A stretch of DNA of 34,579 bases from a virus: the IMG/VR virus record IMGVR_UViG_3300042478_002169, positions 1 to 34,579 of that record. One strand, given 5' to 3'. Shown in pieces: positions 1-33,014 of the stretch. The notes beneath the pieces are model-generated. The model saw nothing but the letters and a program-made list of their open reading frames with translations, had not been told where the DNA came from and searched no databases. Position 1 is the stretch's first letter, and the number at the start of each line of letters is the position of its first letter. The position numbers and the translations under genes were made by a program.

Positions 1-905
1 CTGGTCCCTGAAGATCCTGGAGTTCCATTAGCTCCAGAAGATCCGCTAGTTCCATTTTTACCAGAAGATCCACTAGTTCCAGATGAACCAGAAGTTCCCG
101 AAGATCCACTGGTCCCCGAAGATCCTGGAGTTCCATTAGCTCCAGAAGATCCACTGGTCCCCGAAGATCCTGGAGTTCCATTAGCTCCAGAAGATCCACT
201 GGTCCCTGAAGATCCTGGAGTTCCATTAGCTCCAGAAGATCCGCTAGTTCCATTTTTACCAGAAGATCCACTAGTTCCAGATGAACCAGAAGTTCCCGAA
301 GATCCACTGGTCCCCGAAGATCCTGAAGTTCCATTAGCTCCAGAAGATCCACTGGTCCCCGAAGATCCTGGAGTTCCATTAGCTCCAGAAGATCCACTGG
401 TCCCCGAAGATCCTGGAGTTCCATTAGCTCCAGAAGATCCGCTAGTTCCATTTTTACCAGAAGATCCACTAGTTCCAGATGAACCAAAAGTTCCCGAAGA
501 TCCACTGGTCCCTGAAGATCCTGGAGTTCCATTAGCTCCAGAAGATCCACTAGTTCCAGATGAACCAGAAGTTCCCGAAGATCCACTGGTCCCCGAAGAT
601 CCTGGAGTTCCATTAGCTCCAGAAGATCCACTGGTCCCTGAAGATCCTGGAGTTCCATTAGCTCCAGAAGATCCGCTAGTTCCATTTTTACCAGAAGATC
701 CACTAGTTCCAGATGAACCAGAAGTTCCCGAAGATCCGCTTGTTCCTGAAGAACCACTGGTTCCACTTGAACCACTTGTTCCTGAAGACCCACTGGTCCC
801 CGAAGATCCTGAAGTTCCATTAATTCCAGAAGATCCGCTAGTTCCATTAGCTCCAGAAGATCCTGAAGTTCCATTAGCTCCAGAAGATCCGCTAGTTCCT
901 GCTAC
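1..905 (-). repeat. Collagen-like Gly-X-Y coding repeat with 198-base higher-order units
   Basis: The DNA is built from 9-base Gly-X-Y-type modules grouped into a recurring 45-base block (15 codons, reading GSSGANGTPGSSGTS). Larger nearly identical units start at 1, 199 and 397, giving a 198-base (66-codon) period, and a related unit starts at 631. Copies differ by only occasional single bases such as ccctg versus ccccg. All unit lengths are multiples of nine, so gain or loss of units keeps both reading frame and Gly register. Confidence 0.9.
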
Positions 906-3900
906 ACCTTCATTTCTAGCGATTATTATTCTACTTGCAGGATAATTAGCTTGACTATTTATATTTTGTGAAGTTGAATCATTATGCAAAGCGTATATTT
1001 CTACGTAATCATTATTATTCAAAACCAGAACAGAAGAAAAATGAGTTACTGGATAATCATTGTTTGCTGGTATACTAGAATAAGAATATCTTCCCTGAGA
1101 AGAAGACACGTTACCATTTTTTACTATGAATACAGATCTAGACGTACCAGAAGTTCCACCGCTTGCCCAGCCTATATATCCATCAACAGTAATAACAATT
1201 GAATCTCCAGAAGTATTTGTGAATCTATCAGTTCCATTGAAAGTTAAACCAATTGATCCTTGAGTATTTGCAGTATCCGCTGTAGACCAAATTACTTTTG
1301 TATTTGAAGAAGATGATACGCTTTGAGTAGAATTGTTATAATAAGCTAAAGTAGAAGAAATAACCGGATCACCACTAGTTCCGCTTGTTCCAGAAGTTCC
1401 ACTTTGAGGCTCAATCAAAACACCACGAAAAGTCAATACATTTGCAGTTGTAGTTGACAACGCAAATAAAACCGGCTTTGAAACTTCTCCAAAGTTACTT
1501 GGTTCTGTAGTTGTTACCGTTCCAGCAGTAGTTTCTGATAAAAAGTATATTTCACCAGCAGTCAAACCTGACAAACCACTTATTAATCCATCTACTACCA
1601 CTTTAAAAGTATTTGCAGTTACCGACTTAACAACACCCAATACTTCTGCATTTGCGGCGCTATCTGCTTGCGCCAAATAAAAATCTGAACCATCATATCT
1701 TATGACATTTCCAACAGCAAAAGTATGACCAACTTTTGTAAACTCTTCAATTAAAGAAGTGCCGCTCCCTGTATCTAATTGTTTTTTTACAATGTTATCT
1801 TCAACTACTAATTTATATAAATTTTCTGAAGTTGTTGTTGTTGGTAATTCAGTAAATACTAAATTATTACTACCGCTATAATATAACGTACCTGTTGTTA
1901 AACTATCTGAATCAGAGAATTTTGGTATATATCCACTAACACCTAGACCATCAATAACATATTTATTTGGAAAAACTCTATAGACTTCTGTTTGTATTTG
2001 ATTTTTTGTAAATCTTAGAATATCAGAAAAATCAGAGTAGCTTCCATCTTGATAAGAAGCTCTAACTTTTACATCATAGTTTTTATCTGGTTTTATTGGA
2101 AATTGAATTGACGGTTCAAATTGAGAAAATACAAAATCAGAAGAACCTGTTATTCTCGACGCTAATAAAATACCTGTTTCATTTGAAACCTGACTAACAT
2201 TAGGTTTAACATGAGAAATTATTAATTGATCATTGACTTGAAAACCTAGAGCATTATTATCTCTAAAATTTGTTACATCCAACGTAAACCAACCACCTTC
2301 ATTCGTGTCACTACCAACAGTTACCATTCGATAAACACTAATATCATTTTTCTTCGAAATTTTAATTATACTAGCAAGACTTGACAACCAAGTTGCAACA
2401 CTAAATCCATTGTCGTCTGTAGCGTCAAGATAAATCTCACTAACGCTATTAGAAGATAAAAATAAATCAGAACTTAAATTACCAAGCCCAGGATCAACAG
2501 AAGGGTTAACTTGCCCTAAATAAGTAAACTCTAAATCAGGAATTAAATTAGAAAACTTGCGATCTCCTGAATACGTGCCTGTATAAATACTTCCTGTATA
2601 CAATCCACCACTTGGTAATATAAAAAAATCACTAGCGCTATCGTTGTAACCATACACAAAATACACTTCAGGAGTGGTTATTGCTCCAGATGGAATTCGA
2701 ACTTCTGTTACGTATTTTAATTTTTTATTTTGAGGATATATATCAAGAGGCAAAGAATAATAATTATCAATAAACAAAGTATGATCTTGCCATTTAACAC
2801 CTGAAGTTCCAAATTTATCAAAAATAGGAGTTGTTCCAGAATAATAAATAGAAACATCTTCACTTTTTACTGTTCCAGTACCAGTACCAAATACTATTGA
2901 ACTTATTGATTCTGTTTTTGGATTATTGCATGTAAATACATAACTAGAATTATCTGCGTCTCCATCTTCATAAACATACGCTTCAAAAGATAATGGATTA
3001 TCAGATCTAATAGCATTCCATTTTGCTATAGCTTGTATATCTAAACTTTTATCAAAAACATTTTGCGTACAATTTATATAACCAGTTATATTATCTATAG
3101 AAAATGGAACTTGTTTAGTATTATAAAAAGAAGCTTTAATTCCAGAACTTAAAAAATAATTTCCATTACCTAAATAATCGTTTGGAATAACTACTAAATT
3201 AAAAGGCAAAGATACATCAGATCCGTTTCCATTTAATACTGGAACTTTTATTTCAAAAAGTTGTTTAAATCTAAAATCCTCGTAATCAAAATTTACGGAA
3301 TAATATCCACTAACCAGTTCGGAGAAAGTACCATCAACTGTATCTGGAACAACAGTATTTTCAATAACAGCAAAAACATCAAGACTTTTTAAATTTTCAA
3401 AATTAGGAGAAAAAGGAGTAATAGATACAGGATTTTTATTATCTATTATTACATCTGTAATCTCAGCTTTTGGATATGTTAAAAGCGCGCGAAAAACGTC
3501 GGTATTTCCAGCTAAATCAAAAGTATTAAAATCTAAAAAAAACGTTCTTGTGTTATTTAACCCCGAAAAACCAGTAAAAGAAATTATTGAATCAGCAAGA
3601 TCTAGACTGTTAAAACTAAGAAAAGTTTGATTTGTGTTTGAAATTAAGTTGCGTATTAATTGTCTAGTATTTCCAGTTGTGTATAAATCTACCGTTATGC
3701 CTGAGAATGATTCTGAATCAATTTGCCCACCTTGTATTACAGTTAAAGATTCTGGATCTTTTACAGACAACTCAAAATTCAAAGTTGATTGATTTATCTT
3801 TCCAGAAACGAATTTAGATTCTACATCTAAACCAAAAAGACTTGGATCGGCTGTAAAATCTAAAGACGAAAAAGCATTTAAGTTACTAATCGATAAATTC

Positions 3901-3953
3901 TCTATTGAAAATTTACTAAAACTAGTAGTTGTTGATCCAGTAATTATTGGCAT
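1..3953 (-). CDS. Giant tail fibre with collagen-like repeats (C-terminus off left edge)
   Basis: The reverse frame from the ATG at 3953 is open to the left edge (about 1317 codons, no stop seen), so the C-terminus is missing. The first ~840 residues are Ser/Thr/Asn-rich beta-type sequence without a motif I can name. A short run of Gly-Thr-Ser triplets follows near residue 850, then a ~150-residue globular stretch. From about residue 1016 onward almost every third residue is Gly (GTS, GSS, GAN, GTP, GKN triplets), a collagen-like Gly-X-Y region as found in many phage fibres, where it forms a trimeric stalk. It lies 8 bases downstream of the gpJ-like tip gene, the usual place for a side or central fibre. 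The receptor-binding tip would normally follow the stalk, outside this window. The fibre role is inferred from composition and position. Confidence 0.8.
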   Translation of the reverse strand, partial: MPIITGSTTTSFSKFSIENLSISNLNAFSSLDFTADPSLFGLDVESKFVSGKINQSTLNFELSVKDPESLTVIQGGQIDSESFSGITVDLYTTGNTRQLIRNLISNTNQTFLSFNSLDLADSIISFTGFSGLNNTRTFFLDFNTFDLAGNTDVFRALLTYPKAEITDVIIDNKNPVSITPFSPNFENLKSLDVFAVIENTVVPDTVDGTFSELVSGYYSVNFDYEDFRFKQLFEIKVPVLNGNGSDVSLPFNLVVIPNDYLGNGNYFLSSGIKASFYNTKQVPFSIDNITGYINCTQNVFDKSLDIQAIAKWNAIRSDNPLSFEAYVYEDGDADNSSYVFTCNNPKTESISSIVFGTGTGTVKSEDVSIYYSGTTPIFDKFGTSGVKWQDHTLFIDNYYSLPLDIYPQNKKLKYVTEVRIPSGAITTPEVYFVYGYNDSASDFFILPSGGLYTGSIYTGTYSGDRKFSNLIPDLEFTYLGQVNPSVDPGLGNLSSDLFLSSNSVSEIYLDATDDNGFSVATWLSSLASIIKISKKNDISVYRMVTVGSDTNEGGWFTLDVTNFRDNNALGFQVNDQLIISHVKPNVSQVSNETGILLASRITGSSDFVFSQFEPSIQFPIKPDKNYDVKVRASYQDGSYSDFSDILRFTKNQIQTEVYRVFPNKYVIDGLGVSGYIPKFSDSDSLTTGTLYYSGSNNLVFTELPTTTTSENLYKLVVEDNIVKKQLDTGSGTSLIEEFTKVGHTFAVGNVIRYDGSDFYLAQADSAANAEVLGVVKSVTANTFKVVVDGLISGLSGLTAGEIYFLSETTAGTVTTTEPSNFGEVSKPVLFALSTTTANVLTFRGVLIEPQSGTSGTSGTSGDPVISSTLAYYNNSTQSVSSSSNTKVIWSTADTANTQGSIGLTFNGTDRFTNTSGDSIVITVDGYIGWASGGTSGTSRSVFIVKNGNVSSSQGRYSYSSIPANNDYPVTHFSSVLVLNNNDYVEIYALHNDSTSQNINSQANYPASRIIIARNEGVAGTSGSSGANGTSGSSGANGTSGSSGINGTSGSSGTSGSSGTSGSSGTSGSSGTSGSSGTSGSSGTSGSSGKNGTSGSSGANGTPGSSGTSGSSGANGTPGSSGTSGSSGTSGSSGTSGSSGANGTPGSSGTSGSSGTFGSSGTSGSSGKNGTSGSSGANGTPGSSGTSGSSGANGTPGSSGTSGSSGANGTSGSSGTSGSSGTSGSSGTSGSSGKNGTSGSSGANGTPGSSGTSGSSGANGTPGSSGTSGSSGANGTPGSSGTSGSSGTSGSSGTSGSSGKNGTSGSSGANGTPGSSGT

Positions 3954-3961
3954 ATATAATA

Positions 3962-6900
3962 TTACACTTCAATAATCTTGTTATTTACATCAAAAAGATA
4001 AATTCTTATTCCTGAAACCGCTGAAACTATTTTATTATTTGTTGAGAATTTACCTAAAAATATACGCTTATCTGATATATTGGAATCTTGAATTTTAAAT
4101 TTTAAAGACTGATTTCGTAAAACGACTTTAAACAATAAACCGCCCTTTTTATTAAACACTTCTTGGATATATCCATAATATTTTTTTTCAGCAGTCGTTC
4201 CGTTTTGTCTTTTATCATCTATAAAATTAAAAATATTTGATATTTTTAAATTCAACACATAATAATCTCGCTGCGGACTAGAACTATAAACCAAAGACGA
4301 TTGTTGTTCATTAAAATTAAAATCAACAGTTAAACCATTTATTTCATTTAAAGAATAAGGTGCTATTTCATAATAAGACGAATTCATTCCTGACAGATCT
4401 ACTTCTTTTAATGAATCTGAATCTGCAAAAGAAATTGTATTGTCAACAAATGTAAAGTTTTTTTCAAAACTTCCTTTACTCAGAGATTCATATTTCGCCT
4501 TATCGTGTTTTATACAAAAAAAACTATATTCATTATTACTTGTTTCTGAAATGCTTACAACTTTATATAAATTAGGACCAAGGTTGCTTTTAGAATTTTC
4601 AATTATAAAAGGAGTAGAAGACAAAATTTTAGTAAAATTATAAAATTCATATGTTTCATCAAAATAAATTCTATTTGTATCGTTTTCTATTCTGTTTATT
4701 CTTAATTTAATTACATCTCCCAAGTTTAAATCATCAATATCTTGATCACTAACAGATTTTTGCTCATTCAAAGACGAGATGGTTTTCTTTTGCACATCGG
4801 CTAGAAATTTAATAATTTCACCAGTCGATGTTAAATTTATTTTTCTATCCACAGTTATATACTTATCGTTATAATTGATGGAAGTTACCCTTCCTTGTAA
4901 AACAGAATTGTTTTTAAATTCATCTTCTATTTGAATAACATCACTAGGTTTTAAAATCAAACCTTGTAAATCTGTTGTAAAATTCACTGTTTGATTTTCA
5001 AAACGATTTGTAGCCAATAACCATTCACCTATTCTTCTTGCTTGATGCCTTGATGTTATACCAAAACCTAAAATTTCTTTTGTTACTATTCCATAATTAT
5101 TAACCATCAAAGAATCTTCTACTATTTCTACTTGTTGATCGTAATTTAAATATTTATCTCTAAACATTACTTTTGCCACAGAATAATTACCGTCTATACT
5201 AGCGCTGGAGTAAGAAAACAAACCATCTTTTACATTAGAATTATTAAATAAATAAGAAACAGGTTTTTCTACATCTATCGTTGATGTTATAAAGTTATTT
5301 TTATAATAAGTAAGACCCCTAAAAACAGAAGCTATATCATTAATAACTTTTAAAAACTCAGTTTCATTATCTATTAATATATTACAAGAAAATCTTTTTT
5401 CTAATTTGTCTCTATAGTTTAATGTTTTAGGCAAACAAAATCCTTTTACATTATCATATTCCAATATTTCTTTTGAAAAGCACGGTCTATTGACAAACTG
5501 TTTTGGAAAAACAGCTTTTACATTATTTGTTAAATTATAATCCAACCAATATAAGATACTATTTTTTGCACCTGACTGTGTATTTTTAATAGATTTATCT
5601 ATTTTATTAGTCAATGTATCATTTGAACTTTCTAACGAACTAATACCAACCGAGCTTTTAATAAATTCATTTAAAAAACTAACGGTTTCTGATTTTTCAA
5701 AAAACTTTCTAGGACCAAAATCATTCATTAATTTTATTCTAAAAAAACCTCCGCTACCTGAACTTACATTTGTTATCACTTTATTTCCACCGCTGTCTTT
5801 ACTCAAATTAACTTCATCAACTGAAACTATTATTTTTTTAAAATTTTCATCAATAGATTCAGTATCATTAGAAAGATTATAAAGAAAAATTATTGAATTA
5901 TGAAGGCCACCATTTAAATTTGCATTTGTGCTATCGTTTATAGATGGATATTTTTTTCTAAACTGCTCTAATGTGTCAGCAGAAGAGCTTTTAGCTATTA
6001 ATATTGTGTTTGCATCGTATATTACAAAAGAGTCTTGCGAATAAAGAGACGGAGTATTGATCGGAACCAACTCGTCACAATATTTTGATATTTTATACAA
6101 CTCCCATTTATTTAAGTCTTTATCTGAAATATTTCCCGCCGAAACGCCATATCTGGAATTCGTGCATATATCATTTAAAATCCAAGCAGGATTATCTGTC
6201 CATCTTAAAAAATTGTCAAAATTACCATCCCAATTTCCATCATATTCACCAATTTCTGAATCATAATTTTTTGGGACTTTTATTTTCAAAAGTTTTAAAT
6301 CAAACGATCTTTGAGGATCACTATTAAAATGATTAGAGCTAACTGAAGATCTAACAATAGAAGAAAATGGATAAGAAAAAGATCCTTTATTTATGATTCT
6401 TTCTATAATAGAAGAAACACTGATTTCTTTAAAAACGTCTCCGCTTTCCGGCGATACTTTTTGAGTTAAAGCGAATATTTTTACATAATAAACGTTTCTA
6501 TTTACAGTGTCTAAATTTAAATTTATTGGAATATTAAAAACATAATTACCTTTTGATATACCAGTTAAAACAAAAACTGCGGCAAAAGTATTTGGACTGT
6601 TATCTTCTTCTATTAAAATTCCCATAGAAATACTACCAGTAACAGTACTACCTCCACTAGTATTAAACAAAGAATCTGCTTTAAAGTGAATAGACAACTG
6701 ATCGCAATATTTATTTACAATTTTATGAATAAAAACTTGAGTCTTGTCAGAAGCGTTTCTAAGGGTGTTTATGATATGTAAAGATTTACCAGCGGGTGAA
6801 CTGTCAGGGGTATCACCTGATATTTTTGGTTGTGATAAATAATATTTATCATAAACCATAGAAGTTACATTGTTTACCATTTGCGCAGCAAAGAAACCCC

Positions 6901-7330
6901 TTTGTTGTATATTTATACCCATCGCTGCTTCAAAATCAACTTGATTTAAATAAATTTTCTTATTATAACGATGAACTGTTGAGGCGTATTGATTTTTATA
7001 ATAATTAAACTCTTCGCCATAAGAGATATCAAAACCCTGTGTAACAAAGTTTAATTTATTTAACCTATCATCAATTAATGGAACATCATTAAAATAAACA
7101 CCTTTTCCTAAAACTAAACTTTCTACCGTAGCAGTATTTGAGTCTGTAATATATTTTAGTAAGTTTCCTTCTTTATCAACAAGACCTTCTATAGAACCTT
7201 CACATATAACATCTAAATTCATCATTCTTTCATCAGATTCTAATTTGCCATCAGAACCAATAAATGAAAAAGATTTTTCTATAGAAACGGTATCTACACT
7301 ACGAACGAAAAATGGTAAAGGGTTAGGCAT
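3962..7330 (-). CDS. Tail tip / host specificity protein, lambda gpJ-like
   Basis: This is the central tip protein that caps the distal tail and holds the hub through which DNA passes. Clear gpJ signatures are seen: ICEGSIEGLV at residues 42-51 (lambda ISEGPIEGLV), the NWDG...RWTDNPAW block at 366-383, KWELY...YCDELVP around 408-423, DIASVFRGLTYY at 665-676, DGLF at 702-705, and QARRIGEWLL at 763-772 in the region that precedes the hub domains. About 220 residues (424-643) separate two blocks that are nearly adjacent in lambda gpJ, so this looks like an insertion. A further stretch around residues 100-330 is also not lambda-like. The C-terminal ~300 residues are Asn/Ser-rich and unrecognised. 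No strong Shine-Dalgarno is visible upstream. The fibre gene follows after 8 bases. Confidence 0.93.
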   Translation of the reverse strand: MPNPLPFFVRSVDTVSIEKSFSFIGSDGKLESDERMMNLDVICEGSIEGLVDKEGNLLKYITDSNTATVESLVLGKGVYFNDVPLIDDRLNKLNFVTQGFDISYGEEFNYYKNQYASTVHRYNKKIYLNQVDFEAAMGINIQQRGFFAAQMVNNVTSMVYDKYYLSQPKISGDTPDSSPAGKSLHIINTLRNASDKTQVFIHKIVNKYCDQLSIHFKADSLFNTSGGSTVTGSISMGILIEEDNSPNTFAAVFVLTGISKGNYVFNIPINLNLDTVNRNVYYVKIFALTQKVSPESGDVFKEISVSSIIERIINKGSFSYPFSSIVRSSVSSNHFNSDPQRSFDLKLLKIKVPKNYDSEIGEYDGNWDGNFDNFLRWTDNPAWILNDICTNSRYGVSAGNISDKDLNKWELYKISKYCDELVPINTPSLYSQDSFVIYDANTILIAKSSSADTLEQFRKKYPSINDSTNANLNGGLHNSIIFLYNLSNDTESIDENFKKIIVSVDEVNLSKDSGGNKVITNVSSGSGGFFRIKLMNDFGPRKFFEKSETVSFLNEFIKSSVGISSLESSNDTLTNKIDKSIKNTQSGAKNSILYWLDYNLTNNVKAVFPKQFVNRPCFSKEILEYDNVKGFCLPKTLNYRDKLEKRFSCNILIDNETEFLKVINDIASVFRGLTYYKNNFITSTIDVEKPVSYLFNNSNVKDGLFSYSSASIDGNYSVAKVMFRDKYLNYDQQVEIVEDSLMVNNYGIVTKEILGFGITSRHQARRIGEWLLATNRFENQTVNFTTDLQGLILKPSDVIQIEDEFKNNSVLQGRVTSINYNDKYITVDRKINLTSTGEIIKFLADVQKKTISSLNEQKSVSDQDIDDLNLGDVIKLRINRIENDTNRIYFDETYEFYNFTKILSSTPFIIENSKSNLGPNLYKVVSISETSNNEYSFFCIKHDKAKYESLSKGSFEKNFTFVDNTISFADSDSLKEVDLSGMNSSYYEIAPYSLNEINGLTVDFNFNEQQSSLVYSSSPQRDYYVLNLKISNIFNFIDDKRQNGTTAEKKYYGYIQEVFNKKGGLLFKVVLRNQSLKFKIQDSNISDKRIFLGKFSTNNKIVSAVSGIRIYLFDVNNKIIEV

Positions 7331-7375: not shown

Positions 7376-7918
7376 TTAAGGCTGACCTAAACCGTCATAA
7401 AAGCCAGGCCAAGGTTCATCAGTATATGTATTATCAAATCTTGGTATTATTATTATATCATTTGAAATAACCAAGCTTCCAACTCTTAATCTTCCATATC
7501 CTAATGGAACTGGAGCATTTCTATTAAGAACGTTATTTATTCCTCCTAAAATACTTGAATTTGTTTTCACATCTTTTGGTACTTTAGGGCTTAAAATAAT
7601 AGATAAAACTATTGATAAAATCATCAGAATTATACCTGTTATTATAAGTGCCGTTCCGCCCCCTTGGATTATAGGAATAATTTCTACTTTATTTTCGTTT
7701 TCTAATATTCTACTTTTCAATAAATGAGGAGGCAAAATTTTTCCATTAACATAAACTATGAAATGAGTAACAAACTTTTGAAAATCAGAGAAGTATTTGT
7801 TTATTTTTTGATTATTAGCTTCTACAGCTTCAAAAATTTCATAAACAGAATCAACATTTAATCGCCAATTCTTACCTAATTTTTTTCCCAATATTCCATG
7901 TAAAGTTATGTCTATCAT
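7376..7918 (-). CDS. Tail assembly protein, lambda gpI-like
   Basis: This is a 180-residue homologue of the tail assembly protein that works with gpK, gpL and gpJ in building the tail tip. Residues 1-84 form a ubiquitin-like (beta-grasp) region ending at VEIIPIIQGGG. A strong hydrophobic segment follows at about 87-109. A conserved tail, NRNAPVPLGYGRLRVGS, lies at 132-148. This order (beta-grasp, hydrophobic segment, APVPLGYGRL-type tail) is that of the gpI family. The start codon overlaps the stop codon of the JAMM gene as ATGA (7915-7918), which implies translational coupling. The gene order L-K-I-J is exactly lambda's. Confidence 0.9.
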   Translation of the reverse strand: MIDITLHGILGKKLGKNWRLNVDSVYEIFEAVEANNQKINKYFSDFQKFVTHFIVYVNGKILPPHLLKSRILENENKVEIIPIIQGGGTALIITGIILMILSIVLSIILSPKVPKDVKTNSSILGGINNVLNRNAPVPLGYGRLRVGSLVISNDIIIIPRFDNTYTDEPWPGFYDGLGQP

Positions 7919-8253
7919 ATTGATTTATAATAAAATTCATTATTATTTACACTATAAACTATCATTTTTAAATAAAAGTATTGTTGATTTTTTAAATCCC
8001 AATCTGAAAACCCAATCAAATTACTATGCGCTGGATGACTATGAAATAAAACAACATCATCGTCAAAAATACATTCTTTTGGTGAAATTAAAAAATAATT
8101 AACAGGATCAGGATGCACATTGATACATTCAATAAATTCATCATAAACATTATTTTTTTTAATTAAAAAACCACATATCTCTGTAGTTGAATTTACAGAT
8201 TTTTGTTTTAAAATTTCTAACAATTCTTTTTTAACCTGGAAGTCTGTAATCAT
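7915..8253 (-). CDS. JAMM/Mov34 metalloprotease, N-terminal half of lambda gpK
   Basis: This 112-residue protein has the complete JAMM zinc-protease signature: Glu25, then His71-Ser-His73, ten residues, and Asp84 (HSHPAHSNLIGFSDWD). In lambda-type phages this domain is the N-terminal part of gpK, a tail tip assembly factor whose target is not firmly established. Lambda gpK also carries a C-terminal NlpC/P60 cell-wall hydrolase domain. It is absent here, and the protein ends soon after the JAMM core. The gene overlaps the end of the gpL-like gene by 23 bases and the start of the gpI-like gene by 4, so it is probably co-translated with both. Confidence 0.9.
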   Translation of the reverse strand: MITDFQVKKELLEILKQKSVNSTTEICGFLIKKNNVYDEFIECINVHPDPVNYFLISPKECIFDDDVVLFHSHPAHSNLIGFSDWDLKNQQYFYLKMIVYSVNNNEFYYKSI

Positions 8254-10036
8254 AACCTACTGTTCCTGGAAATCCGCCAAAAGGTATGCCAACATTTGAA
8301 TTACCAAATCGTAATAGACAGCCATTTAAATTTTTAGAACATTTATCTTCTTTCCAAACTTTTGTGTTATAAAGAGGATTTTGTCCTTTTACTGTATTTT
8401 CTACGCAAACAAAAAACTTAGCAGGTAAATCTGAGTTGCTTGAAATTGATTTTTCATTAAAATCGTAATTTAAAGACGGATCAAGTTTAACAAAATCTCC
8501 TTTTATATATTCAGTGTTATTATCGTAATCTCCTTTATAATTTAAATTGTTTAATTTGTAAGTTTCGTAATTTGTAAAATTTATTTGTTGTTGGCTTTCT
8601 AAAAATATTTTATTATTTTCATCCGCCATTGGAACCCCTAAATTTCCATCATCAGGAAATGAATCAAAAAAAGCAACACTATTTTTATAATCTGTTCCAG
8701 TTGATGTATAAGCAATTGGCGTTTTATATTTACTGGCTAAATAAGTGCTAACAGCTTTTACTTCATCATTTGTCAAAGCTCTTTTATAAACGATTATTTC
8801 ATAAACAATTATTTCACTTACCTCAAAAAGATTAATACCAAAATTTTTGACATTCATAACACCAGGAGTTGGTTTTCTAGTTATTTCATTTCCATCTCTA
8901 TAAAAAATCGTACTAGTAGTAGTTGCTGTTTTTGGTATAACTGCTGCATATACTCTATCTTTATCAGTAGTTTTATTTACTTGATTTAAATTTATAGCAT
9001 ATCCATCGGCATAAAAATGATTATCTTCATAAGTATTCCAATATCCTAAATTAAAAGTGTTTGTAGTTTGAGACAACCCCCTTCTTTTATAATTCTGCCC
9101 AAATTTTGTTATGTCTTTCATCGCACTGACGTAAAAAATAGTACAATCAGTATTCAAACCTGAAGTAGTAAAATCTAATCCAATAGTCATGGTATCTGCA
9201 AAATCAAACAAAATCCCTGTTTTGCCCGCTGTATTCGTAAAAACTTTAAGATTGTTAGATAAAGTTACTGGAGTGGAGAGACCGCTAGAATCTGCCCATG
9301 CAGTTAATTTAGGATATACAATTGTTGTGCCGTCACTTATTAGCAAATCAGATGTGCCAAGAACAGTTTGACTAACACCATCTTTAAACCAAGCTACAAG
9401 GTCCGTACTATAACTTGGAATTTGCGTTAAATCAGTGTATGGAAATTTTTGTATTGCTACACTTGGACCATCATAACCATTAATTTTTCCATAATTACAT
9501 CCACAACCTCTGTATTGCCACTGACATGCATCATTGAATATTTTTCTAGACGGCACAACTAAACCGTCAATATCCAATACATTTGCTAAAAGAAAATCAA
9601 CTTTATCTTTTTGTTCTACATTTTTCTTTTGAATAATATAAGTATCATTTGATATAAAAGAAGCAAAAGAAGAAGAAAAATTTTCCCCCATTGTATTTTT
9701 ATAAACACCTCCGAAATTTACATCGTCTAAATCTTTAGCTAAAATCTTTTTTCTAAAAAAACGACAACCTAATAAATCGTTTCTGTCTTTAATAAAATTA
9801 CTTATAAAATTATTAATATTTGAAATGCTTAAAACAGGACGATTTTGTTTTCCTTCGGATGAATATTCTAAATTAGAAAGCTCACAAGGTATATAAAGAT
9901 AAACTGCACCTTTAAAAATTAAATCTTTATCGAAATTCTTAGATCCATGAAATCTAAAATAACCTTCGAAATCATTAATTTTTATTTCAAACAAATCTAT
10001 AATCTCTGAGTTTCTTAGTAAAAAAAGATCTGACAT
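8231..10036 (-). CDS. Minor tail protein, lambda gpL-like, with inserted lectin and CBM-like domains
   Basis: This is a tail tip protein. Residues 1-182 follow lambda gpL: NRPVLSISN at 65-73, a LLGCRFFRKK...DDVNF block around 88-108, GLVVPSRKIF at 158-167, then the Cys region CQWQYRGCGCNYG at 171-183. The end also matches: DKCSKNLNGCLLRF (565-578) and IPFGGFPG (584-591). Lambda gpL binds a 4Fe-4S cluster with four cysteines, and the equivalents here are Cys171, Cys180, Cys566 and Cys573. Lambda has about 22 residues between the second and third, but here there are 385. The insert contains a LamG/concanavalin-like lectin fold (about 205-440) and a stretch like a type 5/12 carbohydrate-binding module (about 500-563, ending NPLYNTKVWKED). 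Total length is 601 residues against about 230 in lambda. Confidence 0.92.
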   Translation of the reverse strand: MSDLFLLRNSEIIDLFEIKINDFEGYFRFHGSKNFDKDLIFKGAVYLYIPCELSNLEYSSEGKQNRPVLSISNINNFISNFIKDRNDLLGCRFFRKKILAKDLDDVNFGGVYKNTMGENFSSSFASFISNDTYIIQKKNVEQKDKVDFLLANVLDIDGLVVPSRKIFNDACQWQYRGCGCNYGKINGYDGPSVAIQKFPYTDLTQIPSYSTDLVAWFKDGVSQTVLGTSDLLISDGTTIVYPKLTAWADSSGLSTPVTLSNNLKVFTNTAGKTGILFDFADTMTIGLDFTTSGLNTDCTIFYVSAMKDITKFGQNYKRRGLSQTTNTFNLGYWNTYEDNHFYADGYAINLNQVNKTTDKDRVYAAVIPKTATTTSTIFYRDGNEITRKPTPGVMNVKNFGINLFEVSEIIVYEIIVYKRALTNDEVKAVSTYLASKYKTPIAYTSTGTDYKNSVAFFDSFPDDGNLGVPMADENNKIFLESQQQINFTNYETYKLNNLNYKGDYDNNTEYIKGDFVKLDPSLNYDFNEKSISSNSDLPAKFFVCVENTVKGQNPLYNTKVWKEDKCSKNLNGCLLRFGNSNVGIPFGGFPGTVGYDYRLPG

Positions 10037-10069: not shown

Positions 10070-11569
10070 TTATGATTGTTTTGTAAAAAACATATTTAAA
10101 AAAGGATGAACTAATGCAGGAGAAAAACCAAGAGATGTACTAACATTATTAATATTACCGCTCAATTGAATATCGCTTGTACTTTTTAATATGATGTTTC
10201 TATAATCATAAACTAATGATTCCGTTATATTTCTGGTTTCTAATTTCATCTGCGAAAACGAAGAATTTGAAACTCCATGTAAATAATCAAATAAAAACAA
10301 TTTTACATTTGCATCGGTATTATTACCTCCATATAGATTCGACAAACTAATCTTAAAAGTCCCAAAACTCTCTATCGGAATAGTCTTTTTTAATTTCATA
10401 CTGCCATCATAAGTTAACATTCCATTGACAAATGTTTGAAGAGTTAAAATATTATTGTCTTTGTCAACACTAGTTATTCCAGAAAACATTTCAACAAAAT
10501 ATAAAGAAAAAGTATTTAGATTTGTAGACAACACAGTAGCAGGAAAAGCAGGATTAGGAATAGTGTTTAAAACAAAAGGAACAGCAGTAGCAGGACTTGA
10601 AATGTTATTTTTAAAACTAGATATATTTGCAAAAGGAATGTTATTATAAATCTGAGATGATTTTTTATTTTTAAACATCTCAAAAGGATTAAAATTAGGA
10701 TATTTGCCCCTAAAATAAAATAAATCATTCCTGATGTTTATAAAATTTTCATAGTCTAATCTTGCGTCTGTATTATTGTCCGAATACACTTGACTATTTA
10801 AAGTGTTTCCTATAAAACTAGCAGTTGGAGAATAAAGATATACTTGATTTTGTTTGATAGTAGTTATCGCTCCAATATTGTAATTTTGAAGCTGATTTGC
10901 ATTTGTGCTATCATAAAAAGAGTGAACAGCGTTAGCTTCATTAATTATATCTGTAGTACCACTTGCTTTTCCAACCGCATAAACTAAAACAGTATAAGAT
11001 GGATTAGTTTTTATTGGTAAAGTTATTGTATTTGAAATTGCTTTATATCTATCAAGCTGATAAAAATATTTATCATAAGCTTTTACTACAGAAAGAGGAT
11101 TGTCAGCCGCGTTCGTTAAACTAACATTAGGACTAATATTTGCATTAGCAGTCCAAGTGGGTAATTTAACTCCTGTAAAATCACCAACAACCAAGTTAGA
11201 AGTTTCAAACTTAAATAAAAGATTTTGAGTGTTTGGAAAAGTTTTTTCTCTAAAATTAAAAAAGATATTAGGTAGTTTTTGTGTATTAGTTCCTATTGTT
11301 GCTATAGGCCCAGCGTTAGCTTCCGCGCCTAAAGGTGTTACTCGCGTATCCGCTCCTGCGTTCAATAAAACACCTTGTTGAGTACCACCAACAGATGCGT
11401 TTCCTGGAGCAGGTATGTTATTGCCTTGATTTGATAAGGTTGTAGCAACTGATTGAGGCGAAATATTTACAGTTGTACCTGCTGATATATTGTCCTCAGA
11501 AATCTGAACCACATCGTTTTGGACACTAATTCTATCTTCATCTAAAGTTCGTATTGAAGTTGTAGCCAT
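10070..11569 (-). CDS. Probable tail adhesin with LamG-like fold
   Basis: This is a 499-residue protein without a clear lambda counterpart. The first ~95 residues are low-complexity and polar (SIRTLDEDRISVQND and similar), probably an anchoring segment. From about 115 to 460 the pattern resembles the LamG/concanavalin-like domains of the neighbouring gpL- and gpM-like proteins: a Trp near 139, an NPSYTVLVYAVGKAS strand at 189-203, and the NGMLTYDGS hairpin typical of such lectin folds. There are no cysteines and no transmembrane segment. It lies between gpM-like and gpL-like genes and ends 33 bases before the latter, so it is most likely a tip-associated carbohydrate-binding or decoration protein. 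The lectin assignment is pattern-based and moderate. Confidence 0.6.
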   Translation of the reverse strand: MATTSIRTLDEDRISVQNDVVQISEDNISAGTTVNISPQSVATTLSNQGNNIPAPGNASVGGTQQGVLLNAGADTRVTPLGAEANAGPIATIGTNTQKLPNIFFNFREKTFPNTQNLLFKFETSNLVVGDFTGVKLPTWTANANISPNVSLTNAADNPLSVVKAYDKYFYQLDRYKAISNTITLPIKTNPSYTVLVYAVGKASGTTDIINEANAVHSFYDSTNANQLQNYNIGAITTIKQNQVYLYSPTASFIGNTLNSQVYSDNNTDARLDYENFINIRNDLFYFRGKYPNFNPFEMFKNKKSSQIYNNIPFANISSFKNNISSPATAVPFVLNTIPNPAFPATVLSTNLNTFSLYFVEMFSGITSVDKDNNILTLQTFVNGMLTYDGSMKLKKTIPIESFGTFKISLSNLYGGNNTDANVKLFLFDYLHGVSNSSFSQMKLETRNITESLVYDYRNIILKSTSDIQLSGNINNVSTSLGFSPALVHPFLNMFFTKQS

Positions 11570-11570
11570 A

Positions 11571-12995
11571 TTATGGATTTGGATTTATGAGTCTTAAATC
11601 TACATCTGTTATATAATTTATTCTTGACCCAGGAATAATAATGTTTTTAGTATCAGAAGTTGTATTGTCTGTAACTAGAAGCGCTTGACCTCCAGCAACA
11701 CCAGCATAAAAAACGCTATCAGTATCTTTATATAGATAATATTGAATTGTTTGTGCATTGTTTATAACGTTGTCTAAATTAAAAACAGGACCGCCATTTT
11801 TTGCATCGCCTACCGCACTACCAGCTTCTCCACCCAAACCATATAATTTTATATTTTCAAATTCTAATTGCATTTTAAAAATATCTGTAGCATCAGTACT
11901 AAATAGAAAAGTCTTGTCGTTTGGAACTATAAAATTTATTGCGCCTTTTACAGGTGAACTGTTTATAGGTAAAGCCGCTTTGTAAACAGCAAAAGGTTTT
12001 TTTTCTGGAAAAAATTTAATAATAGCTCCCGAATATTTTGTGAAATCTAGACTACCACCGTTATTATCTTTTAAAAACTTCAACAAATCAAAATCAACTT
12101 CACTATCAGAAATCTTACTGATTTGAAAAATTTGAGGAGTAAACTTCAAATTACTTCCCGGCGAAGGAGTTAACCCGCTAAAAGCTGTATTATCTAATTC
12201 AGGATCATAAGTTGTAAATCCAGTAACAAATGTTTGCAAACCTGAACCATCAACATTTAATCCAGAAATTCTTGCAAAATAGTTTTGATTTATTGATAAA
12301 TTTTGTAAAGTTACTGTATAATCTTCATCTAAAAAAGAATCATATTTTCCAAATAAAGGTTCGTTTTCATTAATATTATTTTTTATTTCATACGTATCTA
12401 TTGAAATAGGAGTGGTGAAAGAGCTATCTGAAAAAGTTTCTACCCTAAAACCTGTAAGATAATTTTCAGATTGTATTACGCTCCAATTATATTGAATATT
12501 TACTTGGCTATTGGGTAAATAATCTGTTACAGCATAAAATTTACCAATTCTTTTTGGTTGAGGTTGAGCAAAAACTCTTTGTCCAGAAATATCAATTATA
12601 ATATTATCATCTACACCCCCTAAAGACGAAACACTTTCAACAGTGATTCTCGCTGTTTCATGACCAGTATGCTTACCGTTTGGAGGCGATAAAGAATAAT
12701 TTGAAAATGGTTTATGTAATACAAAAACAACCCCAGAATCATTTGGATTAACTACTTTAACTATAGAATCGTTATCTGATGAATCATTTATTAAACTATC
12801 AGATATAAATATAGTTTTATCAGGAACATCACCACCTAAAACGTCAGAACTTGTAATGCCTGTCAACAATGTGTTTGATATTTTTATTGTATATTCAACC
12901 GGCGAGTTACCACTATTAATTAAAGCCAAGCCAGTTGAAAAACCAAAACCTGTTGGCACTTTATTTAAATAAAAACCTGTATAATAAATACTCAT
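11571..12995 (-). CDS. Tail adhesin with Ig-like, FN3-like and Gly-rich domains
   Basis: This 474-residue protein probably works as a tip adhesin. Residues ~5-145 look like an Ig-type domain of the ASH/choice-of-anchor-D kind (ALINSGNSPVEYTIKIS, then ITVES...IIIDISGQRV). Residues ~165-265 resemble fibronectin type III, ending in an NYFARISGLNVDGSG loop pattern. Residues ~383-440 (KLYGLGGEAGSAVGDAKNGG..., then YAGVAGGQALL) resemble the Gly-rich fold found in phage adhesins and in C-termini of lambda-type tip proteins, where Gly-rich loops face the receptor. The start overlaps the stop of the gpM-like gene by one base (TAATG), implying coupled translation. No enzymatic motif is seen. Roles are inferred from domain look and position. 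Confidence 0.65.
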   Translation of the reverse strand: MSIYYTGFYLNKVPTGFGFSTGLALINSGNSPVEYTIKISNTLLTGITSSDVLGGDVPDKTIFISDSLINDSSDNDSIVKVVNPNDSGVVFVLHKPFSNYSLSPPNGKHTGHETARITVESVSSLGGVDDNIIIDISGQRVFAQPQPKRIGKFYAVTDYLPNSQVNIQYNWSVIQSENYLTGFRVETFSDSSFTTPISIDTYEIKNNINENEPLFGKYDSFLDEDYTVTLQNLSINQNYFARISGLNVDGSGLQTFVTGFTTYDPELDNTAFSGLTPSPGSNLKFTPQIFQISKISDSEVDFDLLKFLKDNNGGSLDFTKYSGAIIKFFPEKKPFAVYKAALPINSSPVKGAINFIVPNDKTFLFSTDATDIFKMQLEFENIKLYGLGGEAGSAVGDAKNGGPVFNLDNVINNAQTIQYYLYKDTDSVFYAGVAGGQALLVTDNTTSDTKNIIIPGSRINYITDVDLRLINPNP

Positions 12996-14887
12996 TACGT
13001 TAATTTTATTTGTGTGTTAAATAAAGCCTCTGGATTTGCGGGATTTTTAAATTCAATAAATTTTACACTAATATCATTATTATTAATGAAATTGTATGTA
13101 TGATTCCATTCTGGACAGTAAACCGATATTGTTTTGTTATAAGGTTGCGGCAATGTATAAGAAAATATTTTAAAACCAGCTTTATCATCTAAAAATTTTA
13201 ATATAGCTCTTGCTTCTTGATTTGTTCTCCTATTAAATGATATAGAAAATTCTAATATATTATAATTTATTCCATCTTTTGAATATTCGATTGTCGAATT
13301 CTTCATTTCAGTTGAAAACAATCTAACGTTTTCATTTATATCGTATTCTAGATCTCCTTTAAAATAAAAATCTTTAGTAAAAAACGAATTCGCACCTGTT
13401 GGGCTTTCACTTGGGCCTATCAATATTTTATCAAAAGGACCGCTGGCAGGCCCAGTAACAGGTCCAGTTGCATTAGTAGAGTTTCTATTTATCCCTGTAT
13501 AAAAATAATATCCTCTATCAATAAAAGAGGTAGAAGGATAATAAAAAACATCATGAGTGGTTAACGAATCAACAGTTTCCGTATATGTTTTAATTTTAAT
13601 TTCGTCTAATACTACATGCATTCCTTTATAATCAAGAGAGCTATCATATAAAGATTCCGCCTCTATTGTTATTTTATTTATGTTATTATAAGATGAATTG
13701 AAATTTGCTTTTTTAAAATATAATTCTGCATTAGATTTATAAGGATTAAATAAATTAGTAGTTACCCCTTTAAATCCTTCGTATATACTTTTATTAGGTG
13801 ATTCCGGTGTATTTTCAAAGAAAGCTATTAAACATTTTGCTTGAGCGTCTGTTAATCCGTCGTATACTAAATTAAAAGTTGCATTTAATGTATTTATGGT
13901 ATTTACAATATTTGTTTTATAACCGTCTCCCATTTTTAATGGAGATAAATTAGCAGTAAAATTTGCCGAAGAACCGTAATTGAAATTAAACAAATCATTT
14001 ATATTTTTTGTCCAATAATCTTTTCCTGTAAAAAAGATAGGAGAATATTGCTCTCCAACAGGTACGTCTTTTTTAGCAAAAAATAAGCCATCAGATTCTG
14101 GGAAGTATTTTTCAAACAAGTATTTTTCATAGTAATCTATTTGTGTTTCCGATAAGATGCCTGAAAAATAGAAAAGATCATAATAGTTTATTCCATTATT
14201 TCCTGGATTATTTCCTATTTCAAAATAGCTAGAATTCCATTGAGCATTAGGAGAATTAATTTGCCCAACTTGAAGTCCATTTTGCCTAACTTTTAAACTA
14301 GTGCCAGCGTCTTGAATTAATGTAAAAATATTAGTTTCATCATAAATAGGAGAAACAGCAAAAAATGAAGTGGTATCTAAAATAAGTTGAGCCTGCAAAT
14401 TTCCATTTGTTCCCGCAACTTGTAAAGATCCATTAGGTGAATCTAATGGTCCAAATTTTATTATTTTTTGTTTATCTGTGTTGGGTTTGTTTGGCGAAGA
14501 AACGTTAGCGGCTATAAAAATAGTTCTCTTAGTATGTTCAAAACCAGTACCACTTAAAAATTCTAAATTTTTTAATGTTATGTATGGTTGATTAAATACT
14601 ACATTTGGTCTTACATTATCATCTAAAGAAAACTGCAATAAGTTTCCACTGTTAATTACTTTATTTGTCCAGCCCGTAATATTGAAATTTCCATCAGTTG
14701 CAAAATCTTCTAAATAATCATTATTAAACCAACTACATAATCCCGTATTTCCAAATCCAGTATAATTAGGATAAACTGAAATTCCTGTAATAAGCTGATA
14801 ATCTATAATATCAAATTTGTCATAACTCAAAAGAGGATCATACTCAAAAATATTTTTTATATTAAGACCTGAAATAAGTGAACTCAT
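12995..14887 (-). CDS. Minor tail protein, lambda gpM-like, duplicated, with N-terminal LamG-like domain
   Basis: This tail tip protein contains two stretches that each resemble lambda gpM (about 109 residues). Module A, about 290-420, has KMGDGY at 318-323 (lambda RFGDGY) and LTDAQAKCLIAFFEN at 345-359. Module B, about 528-615, has TNQEARAILKFLDDKAGFK (555-573) followed by SVYCPEW (588-594), matching the lambda EEATVLESFLEEHGGWK...VTCAKW segment. In front of them, residues ~45-262 form a LamG-like lectin pattern. Between the modules lies a Gly/Pro/Ser/Thr-rich linker (about 473-500). In lambda gpM sits just after the tape measure protein; here three extra genes separate them. The one-base overlap with the next gene (TAATG) suggests coupling. 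Confidence 0.85.
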   Translation of the reverse strand: MSSLISGLNIKNIFEYDPLLSYDKFDIIDYQLITGISVYPNYTGFGNTGLCSWFNNDYLEDFATDGNFNITGWTNKVINSGNLLQFSLDDNVRPNVVFNQPYITLKNLEFLSGTGFEHTKRTIFIAANVSSPNKPNTDKQKIIKFGPLDSPNGSLQVAGTNGNLQAQLILDTTSFFAVSPIYDETNIFTLIQDAGTSLKVRQNGLQVGQINSPNAQWNSSYFEIGNNPGNNGINYYDLFYFSGILSETQIDYYEKYLFEKYFPESDGLFFAKKDVPVGEQYSPIFFTGKDYWTKNINDLFNFNYGSSANFTANLSPLKMGDGYKTNIVNTINTLNATFNLVYDGLTDAQAKCLIAFFENTPESPNKSIYEGFKGVTTNLFNPYKSNAELYFKKANFNSSYNNINKITIEAESLYDSSLDYKGMHVVLDEIKIKTYTETVDSLTTHDVFYYPSTSFIDRGYYFYTGINRNSTNATGPVTGPASGPFDKILIGPSESPTGANSFFTKDFYFKGDLEYDINENVRLFSTEMKNSTIEYSKDGINYNILEFSISFNRRTNQEARAILKFLDDKAGFKIFSYTLPQPYNKTISVYCPEWNHTYNFINNNDISVKFIEFKNPANPEALFNTQIKLT

Positions 14888-31253: not shown

Positions 31254-33014
31254 ATGGCAAGAAATCGTGTAATTTATCAAAGTCAAGCGTTATTTATATC
31301 GCCCAGTTCAACTGGCATACAAGTAAGCGGCATCAATTTAACAGGAATAACATCTTCAGGAGTTTTATCTAATGCCCCTCTTTTAACGTCGCCTTTTACA
31401 GAAGCCGATAATAATAAAGGTGGATTGAGTGGTTTAGTAGGTGGAGTTTCTTTATTGAAGAAATTGGATCGTATACAAAGTTGCAATTTTAACATGTCTA
31501 TTAATAGACAAGACATTAACGAGTTCGGCAAGCTCGCCAGATTAGATTCTATAGTTTTGGAATCTCCAACGGTTGGATTGGATTTTAATTATTATGTTAC
31601 CGATGGGTTTAATGAAAGATTATTGGGATTCAATATAACAGGAGTTGGCGATAGCGCAAATACTAGTAATACAGCTCAATCTATTTCTGGTCTATTGAAT
31701 GATGCACAAGGAAATAATTATTACATCTTAACAGTCGATGAAGGTGAAGACGTAGTAGGAGGAAATTTAACTCCTTCGGCAAGTGTTGTTGGTATTGGAA
31801 ATGGATTTGTAACTGAGTATAGTTTCGAAGCTAGTGTCGGGAGTATTCCAACTGTAAGTGTTACTGTTGAAGGTTTTAACATAAAGTCAGATCTTAATCA
31901 AGTAGCAATACAAACATATCCAACTGGCGGCGTTGTTAATAATACAATGCCTTTTAGTCAGTATCCTTATATTTATAATTCTGGAACAAGTGTATTAAAT
32001 GTTTTTTCAACAATAGCTAATTCAACAGGATTAAGTCATGCTAATTCTTTAGCAGTCAATGAAGCTATTTATATAAATCCAGCCAATTCTGATTTTTCCT
32101 TCAATGTTCCTTATTATGTAGTTGAAAGAAACGCATCTACATTTGCTGTTTCTACATATTTAAATGGACCGGCAATATCAACACAATTTACCACTTCACC
32201 AAATGCTTATTATAATACAGCTACAAATTCATTAATTGCAGGTACAATCACTGGATATCTTAGTGGAACAGTAACTTGTTTTACAGGAACCAGCCCAGCA
32301 ATCATAACAAACACTTCTCCAGCAACAAAACGCTCTGAAGTTCCATTTGCTTATAAAATAGATTACGCTAGAACCAACACTGCAATCGGAACAAATGTAA
32401 TCACCACCAACAATCCATTCGCTGGAGCAAGCAATTTATCTGGACTATGGTCATCTACTGCTGGAGATGGATTATTTAATACTGGAAATTCAAGCGTAAC
32501 AGCCTTGCGTCCTGGAGATATTGTTTTAACTATTCCAGCTTCAGACGGTATGGCTTCAGTTACTGGAGGGGACAAAGCTCACATTCAATCATTTAGTTTC
32601 ACACTTCCGCTATCAAGAACTGTTTTGCAAAGATTAGGTAATACATTCGGTTTCGCAAGAGTAGTAAATGTTCCAATTAATATGGACATAAGTATTAGCG
32701 CTATTGTTTCTGAATTAAAAAGTTTTAATTTATTTGATGAACTAGTCGCCTCAGACAAACGAACTTTAGAAATTCAAATGAAAGATAGTTCTAGTAATGC
32801 AAAAATGACATATACAATTAAAGGAGCTATTCTACAATCCGAAACTTATTCAGAAAATCTTGGTGATAATCAAACCGTAGATTTAACTTACACTGTACAA
32901 TGCGGTGGAGCCAACGATACTGAAAACGGATTATTCATGAGCGGATCAGCAAACTTTACTAATGATTTGGTTGTGCAAAACTTCTATAAACTAGGATCTA
33001 ATAAAGTTAATTAA
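31254..33014 (+). CDS. Putative tail tube protein, paralogue 2 with extra inserted domain
   Basis: This 586-residue protein is a paralogue of the preceding gene product. The shared core lies at 69-215 and from about 335 to the end. A segment of about 110 residues (about 222-332) has no counterpart in paralogue 1: NVFSTIANSTGLSHANSLAVNEAIYINPANSD... and VPYYVVERNASTFAVS. Such a pattern (a short strand, a GL..aN turn, then YYVV...TFAVS) resembles a small beta domain repeatedly seen in phage structural proteins. The two genes begin with nearly identical DNA including the nine bases before the ATG, so they arose by duplication. The gene ends 18 bases before the hairpin terminator. Confidence 0.6.
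   Translation: MARNRVIYQSQALFISPSSTGIQVSGINLTGITSSGVLSNAPLLTSPFTEADNNKGGLSGLVGGVSLLKKLDRIQSCNFNMSINRQDINEFGKLARLDSIVLESPTVGLDFNYYVTDGFNERLLGFNITGVGDSANTSNTAQSISGLLNDAQGNNYYILTVDEGEDVVGGNLTPSASVVGIGNGFVTEYSFEASVGSIPTVSVTVEGFNIKSDLNQVAIQTYPTGGVVNNTMPFSQYPYIYNSGTSVLNVFSTIANSTGLSHANSLAVNEAIYINPANSDFSFNVPYYVVERNASTFAVSTYLNGPAISTQFTTSPNAYYNTATNSLIAGTITGYLSGTVTCFTGTSPAIITNTSPATKRSEVPFAYKIDYARTNTAIGTNVITTNNPFAGASNLSGLWSSTAGDGLFNTGNSSVTALRPGDIVLTIPASDGMASVTGGDKAHIQSFSFTLPLSRTVLQRLGNTFGFARVVNVPINMDISISAIVSELKSFNLFDELVASDKRTLEIQMKDSSSNAKMTYTIKGAILQSETYSENLGDNQTVDLTYTVQCGGANDTENGLFMSGSANFTNDLVVQNFYKLGSNKVN

Follow-up and report, generated by a model that had tools for sequence, protein, structure and literature searches.

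What occupies the 385 residues that separate two cysteines of a putative iron-sulfur site in a phage tail hub protein, and is the metal site connected with the function of the inserted sequence? This question is raised by a stretch of DNA of 34,579 nucleotides from an uncultured aquatic phage (IMG/VR record IMGVR_UViG_3300042478_002169, positions 1 to 34,579), which is referred to here as the window. The first-pass annotation described one gene of the window as a homolog of the lambda tail protein gpL, with a LamG-like domain and a CBM5/12-like stretch between the second and the third cysteine of a 4Fe-4S cluster. It also proposed that the cluster closes the base of a loop displaying these domains, and that the state of the cluster is coupled to the display of the adhesin.

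The gpL-like hub gene and its tail-tip neighborhood

The gene was correctly placed at positions 8231-10036 in the right reading frame, and lies on the minus strand. In a profile search, its product matched PF05100 (Phage_tail_L) with the e-value 9.1e-35 (120.3 bits, against a cut-off of 25) and phrog_18 with the e-value 4.7e-46, which confirms the proposed homology to gpL. With phmmer the 601-aa protein matched lambda gpL (8iyk_L) with the e-value 6e-17, and the same chain was the top PDB match of the full AF2 model (e-value 4.4e-12). The match to PF05100 is in two parts, residues ~26-184 and ~557-591. The features of the protein are as follows.

8231..10036 (-): gpL-like tail hub protein, 601 aa, with an expanded loop between cysteines 2 and 3 (PF05100, phrog_18, PDB match 8iyk_L)
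9539..10036 (-): N-terminal hub domain (HDI-like), residues 1-166 (best PF05100 stretch 26-184; pLDDT mostly 70-90 for residues 11-150)
9524..9526 (-): C171, putative cluster cysteine 1 (lambda C173), invariant in the 75-sequence alignment
9497..9499 (-): C180, putative cluster cysteine 2 (lambda C182), invariant in the same alignment
8711..9445 (-): predicted LamG/concanavalin-A-like jellyroll, residues 198-442, first insert (AF2 fold and structure match)
8603..8647 (-): probable retained gpL loop segment, residues 464-478, between the inserts (scan with the ordinary-loop profile)
8354..8545 (-): second module, residues 498-561, weakly CBM5/12-like, second insert
8339..8341 (-): C566, putative cluster cysteine 3 (lambda C205), invariant in the same alignment
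8318..8320 (-): C573, putative cluster cysteine 4 (lambda C212), invariant in the same alignment
8252..8353 (-): C-terminal half of the iron-sulfur domain, residues 562-595 (PF05100 positions 170-203)

The protein contains cysteines at positions 51, 91, 171, 178, 180, 298, 544, 566, and 573. Those at 171, 180, 566, and 573 constitute the gpL set, exactly as numbered in the first-pass annotation. They are arranged as C171-X8-C180 and C566-X6-C573, and the X8 and X6 spacings are identical to those of lambda gpL, the cluster of which was assigned to C173, C182, C205, and C212 (PMC10721106). Only P67, D104, L150, P162, R164, C171, Y175, C180, D564, C566, and C573 are invariant among 75 aligned homologs. 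All four cysteines are included in these columns, and therefore their match is not due to chance. C178 and C544 were considered as additional ligands of the cluster and rejected, since each is lost in several relatives.

The genes around the hub gene are consistent with a lambda-like tail tip.

12995..14887 (-): gpM-like distal tail protein, 630 aa, with an N-terminal extension of ~500 aa (PF05939 at 508-611, e-value 6.4e-14)
7915..8253 (-): gpK-like JAB protein, 112 aa, the next gene (phrog_30, e-value 5.6e-11; Prok-JAB, e-value 1.8e-4, under the Pfam cut-off)
7376..7918 (-): gpI-like tail assembly protein (phrog_32, e-value 4.5e-22)
3962..7330 (-): gpJ-like central fiber/hub protein (phrog_31, e-value 9.5e-100)
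3-3953 (-): collagen-repeat tail fiber protein of at least 1317 aa, running past the edge of the window

The NlpC/P60 peptidase half was not detected in the 112-aa gpK-like protein. The M-L-K-I-J context of the gpL family is present with two extra genes after gpM, and the order common to the relatives is gpM, two unassigned genes, gpL, gpK, gpI, gpJ, and the fiber. One of the two genes, at 11571-12995 (-), encodes a protein of 474 aa, for which an fn3 match under the threshold was the sole family hit; the relatives keep it at this place between gpM and gpL, where lambda has no gene. The other, at 10070-11569 (-) and adjoining gpL, encodes a 499-aa protein almost without family matches. It shows 25-44% identity, is among the least conserved tail-tip genes in the relatives, and is a second candidate for a host-contact protein. 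The 601-aa protein is probably the gpL-type hub of this tail tip, an assignment that forms part of the joint explanation weighed below.

Two probable inserts in the loop between cysteines 2 and 3

In ordinary gpL proteins, exactly 22 residues lie between cysteines 2 and 3 (32 of the 32 parsed), and further sequences judged by eye have the same gap, with a few exceptions lacking a cysteine. The X8 and X6 cysteine pairs are kept in all 39 parsed relatives bearing an insert, and the gap in these proteins ranges from 134 to 518 aa.

Residues 198-442 are predicted to form a two-sheet jellyroll. An initial AF2 run with 11 close relatives modeled the insert well but left the hub core with pLDDT below 50. 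With the 75-sequence alignment, the mean pLDDT was 80.8 and most of the core was improved; the jellyroll reached about 85-97 across most of the domain, while confidence was low at residues 159-181, with pLDDT about 50-60 around C171-C180. The best VIA match of the jellyroll was the tailspike of the cyanopodophage Pan3 (9vyh_p; Z 17.7, rmsd 2.9, 202 aligned residues). Concanavalin-A-like chains were matched with Z 16-17.7, including a phage tailspike and other glycan-binding domains, with sialidase lectin and clostridial binding domains at Z ~16. The identities are 6-14%, and these matches indicate a shared fold, not a function. No functional meaning was drawn from the binding domains of clostridial toxins among the top matches, as they have the jellyroll alone in common with the insert (6-13% identity). 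The conserved residues of the domain do not form an obvious ligand site. Residues 211-459 also matched phrog_10356, annotated as 'virion structural protein', with the e-value 9.4e-5. Thus, the LamG-like domain of the first-pass annotation is predicted with good confidence as a lectin-fold jellyroll of the LamG/ConA type, although neither LamG nor CBM5/12 was matched by Pfam in the insert of 31 members. The gpL proteins of three relatives (L013, L014, and L015) carry up to 72 more residues within this domain, in a stretch of the GQVVSGTNIPSGATITALGTG type.

For the second module, a relation to CBM5/12 is weakly suggested. Compared by hhalign with a set of CBM5/12 sequences, the module gave a probability of 31% over 16 columns; the score of 20.5 exceeds those of 30 column shuffles (at most 15.2). 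The reference sequences were picked from genomes by a motif regular expression, and the comparison is therefore indicative only. The module has no CBM5/12 (PF02839) match by Pfam in 21 members, and lacks the chitin-binding tryptophan pair (WW) typical of many CBM5/12 sequences, as do some of the CBM5/12 sequences collected. The CBM5/12-like stretch proposed earlier is thus retained as a faint likeness, but not as a Pfam-level assignment.

Between the two modules lies a short segment (GNLGVPMADENNKIF at residues 464-478, GVPMADENNKIFL at residues 467-479), which may be compared with PPVADEKD in ordinary gpL. When insert-bearing members were scanned with a profile built from the 22-residue loops of ordinary gpL, the top window fell on this motif in 34 of the 39, and the second window in the other 5. 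The protein studied here (P0001) belongs to the latter: its motif is the second-best window (3.6 versus 3.8), and the shuffle p is 0.24 for the best window. Because of this ranking, the case for two inserts rests on the family. The MAFFT alignment did not place the motif against the ordinary loop, and its reading as a retained loop comes from the profile scan. Four relatives (L361, L362, L366, and L367) have gaps of 134-156 residues; they are without the LamG domain but retain a GVP/GLPxADEN[ND]K motif as well as the second module. It is most likely that the motif is the original gpL loop strand, preceded by one insert, the LamG domain, and followed by the other, the small module. The earlier annotation gave the distance between C180 and C566 exactly, but a single 385-residue insert was rejected in view of the retained motif and the LamG-less relatives, and two inserts flanking a retained loop describe the sequence better.

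Distribution and divergence of the modules

Insert-bearing relatives were found only among IMG/VR contigs. No phage record among 50,697, and no isolated phage, covers 80% of the 601-aa protein. A search for the host revealed neither a genome relative at profile level nor phage matches to the neighboring gene at 31254-33014. PF05100 was found in 18 of 398 sampled genomes, of a phylum searched from a Limnohabitans genome, and none of the PF05100 matches listed from these genomes is split at the loop between cysteines 2 and 3. Two of them (G097:C102:52848-54038 and G396:C33:216002-217171) are split at profile position 91-94, which suggests an insert of ~190 residues in the N-terminal hub domain. 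Another insertion site is seen within the iron-sulfur domain of cyanophage gpL: L147:3001-3900 carries a clean 65-residue insert directly past cysteine 4, whereas L143:3001-3705 and close relatives do not. None of the four cluster cysteines is present in a gpL-like protein of 190 aa from Prochlorococcus phage MED4-184 (L054:2462-3034).

In close pairs, divergence is far more rapid in the LamG domain than in the core. Mean pairwise identity is 0.71 for the N-terminal core, 0.31 for LamG, 0.78 for the loop motif, 0.54 for the second module, and 0.71 for the C-terminal core. Between P0001 and L005, dN/dS is about 0.12 for the core, 0.65 for LamG, and 0.09 for the second module; in some other pairs the dS of LamG is high or saturated, and those ratios are less reliable. 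One relative (L007) shows 95% identity in the core and 44% in LamG. The nearest neighbors by core and by LamG agree for most members, not all. Simple swapping of LamG between lineages was rejected on this basis; rapid divergence accompanied by some recombination is a more probable origin of the pattern than exchange on a large scale.

Precedents and the proposed role of the iron-sulfur domain

Related particles are already known to carry sugar-binding domains in the loop that separates cysteines 2 and 3. In the hub gp13 of RcGTA, the ion-binding domain consists of residues 143-167 and 250-263 and is split by an oligosaccharide-binding domain at 168-249 (PMC7296036), and the hub of the roseophage R4C is split in the same way in its cryo-EM structure (PMC10276861). 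These particles contain three hub copies per tail. Thirteen PF09356 (GTA-type) hub homologs from genomes have X84-X91 between the cysteine pairs; the 601-aa protein matched PF09356 with the e-value 0.086 over 28 residues, under the cut-off. The shared feature is a domain of sugar-binding type between the halves of an iron-sulfur domain. Unlike the single oligosaccharide-binding-type domain of ~85 residues in RcGTA gp13 and R4C, a LamG jellyroll of ~245 residues and a second module are found here, and their combination is a variation on a design already known. The homology to gpL, the four retained cysteines, and the lectin-fold domain between cysteines 2 and 3 support the earlier proposal of a display loop that the cluster region would hold shut at its base, and the cryo-EM structures of the RcGTA and R4C hubs have the same topology.

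Other systems resemble the protein in part. Lambda gpL (8iyk_L) shares the N-terminal hub domain, the local cysteine spacing, and the tail-tip gene order, but has 22 instead of 385 residues between cysteines 2 and 3 and no lectin domain. The upper baseplate protein gp50 of JBD30 has cysteines at 147, 156, 238, and 245 (PMC11445458); the four-cysteine metal site and the widened gap between Cys156 and Cys238 are similar, while the gap is smaller (81 residues) and the site is described as a putative metal site. In lactococcal siphophages, an evolved Dit is reported to be tied to adsorption (PMC10688798). There, a carbohydrate-binding module is likewise carried within a conserved tail-tip protein, but the carrier is the distal tail protein and has no iron-sulfur domain. 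The Pan3 tailspike, the best VIA match to the jellyroll, is a podophage tailspike domain with 12% identity, not a hub insert.

The following explanation is given a probability of about 0.72 as a whole, hub assignment included. The N-terminal domain would build the last ring of the tail. A [4Fe-4S] cluster on C171, C180, C566, and C573 would hold together the small C-terminal domain, and this domain would lie on the outer face of the tip, as the Fe-S domain of lambda faces the outer surface (PMC10721106). The surface loop between cysteines 2 and 3, normally of 22 residues, would carry the LamG domain before the GVPxADENNK segment and the small conserved module after it. The cluster would serve as a structural staple closing the base of the loop, so that the hub would tolerate the addition of large domains. 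With one LamG domain on each gpL, a virion would have up to three, which would extend to the side as fast-evolving adhesins and may bind glycans of the host surface in a reversible, host-specific first contact. The position and number of the domains are taken by analogy from the structures of lambda and RcGTA, as are the bound cluster and its orientation.

Counting against the adhesin reading, a jellyroll fold alone is no proof of sugar binding, and LamG-type domains can bind protein. The LamG domain could instead be a docking platform for the collagen-type fiber or other tail-tip proteins. JBD30 gp50, with the same cysteine pattern, helps to form the attachment sites of tail fibers (PMC11445458), and a collagen-type fiber gene belongs to the same gene cluster here. 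Such a platform is nevertheless unlikely: the divergence of the LamG domain, much more rapid than that of the other parts of gpL, fits a surface in contact with the host better than a docking surface that stays constant, and four relatives are devoid of it while the surrounding genes are kept.

As for the metal site, the lineage could have no Fe-S cluster at all, the cysteines binding zinc or forming disulfides, for example, and the domain being held by other contacts. The local model confidence is low, LSH1 lacks the cysteines entirely, and lambda homologs without a cluster were reported (PMC13243795). The invariance of the cysteines, with the lambda spacing, in every relative checked makes this improbable. 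Even less credence is given to the idea that the cluster controls lectin display through its redox state or its occupancy, acting as a redox- or oxygen-sensitive clasp whose loss or oxidation opens the base of the loop and shifts the lectin domains. The adhesion of the phage would then depend on the redox state of its surroundings. The topology, in which the cluster closes the loop base, is compatible with such a clasp, and the cluster of lambda gpL is described as oxygen-sensitive in work cited in PMC10721106. The published structures show no sign of a switch, and the cysteines are equally invariant in insert-less gpL and in the LamG-less relatives. Because of this invariance, the cysteines were not recruited for the adhesin, and the coupling of cluster state to adhesin display put forward in the first-pass annotation is not supported.

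Under the staple explanation, the loop between cysteines 2 and 3 of siphophage hubs is suggested to be a cassette site. In ordinary gpL the site is empty. GTA-type hubs use it for a single small domain and some aquatic phages for one module, and in the protein described here it is occupied by that module together with a lectin-fold domain. Stapling of a display loop may be a candidate reason for the conservation of the cluster, the role of which is still unexplained in lambda. Fast-evolving candidate determinants of host range would thus reside inside a gene that is usually read as encoding a housekeeping tail protein.
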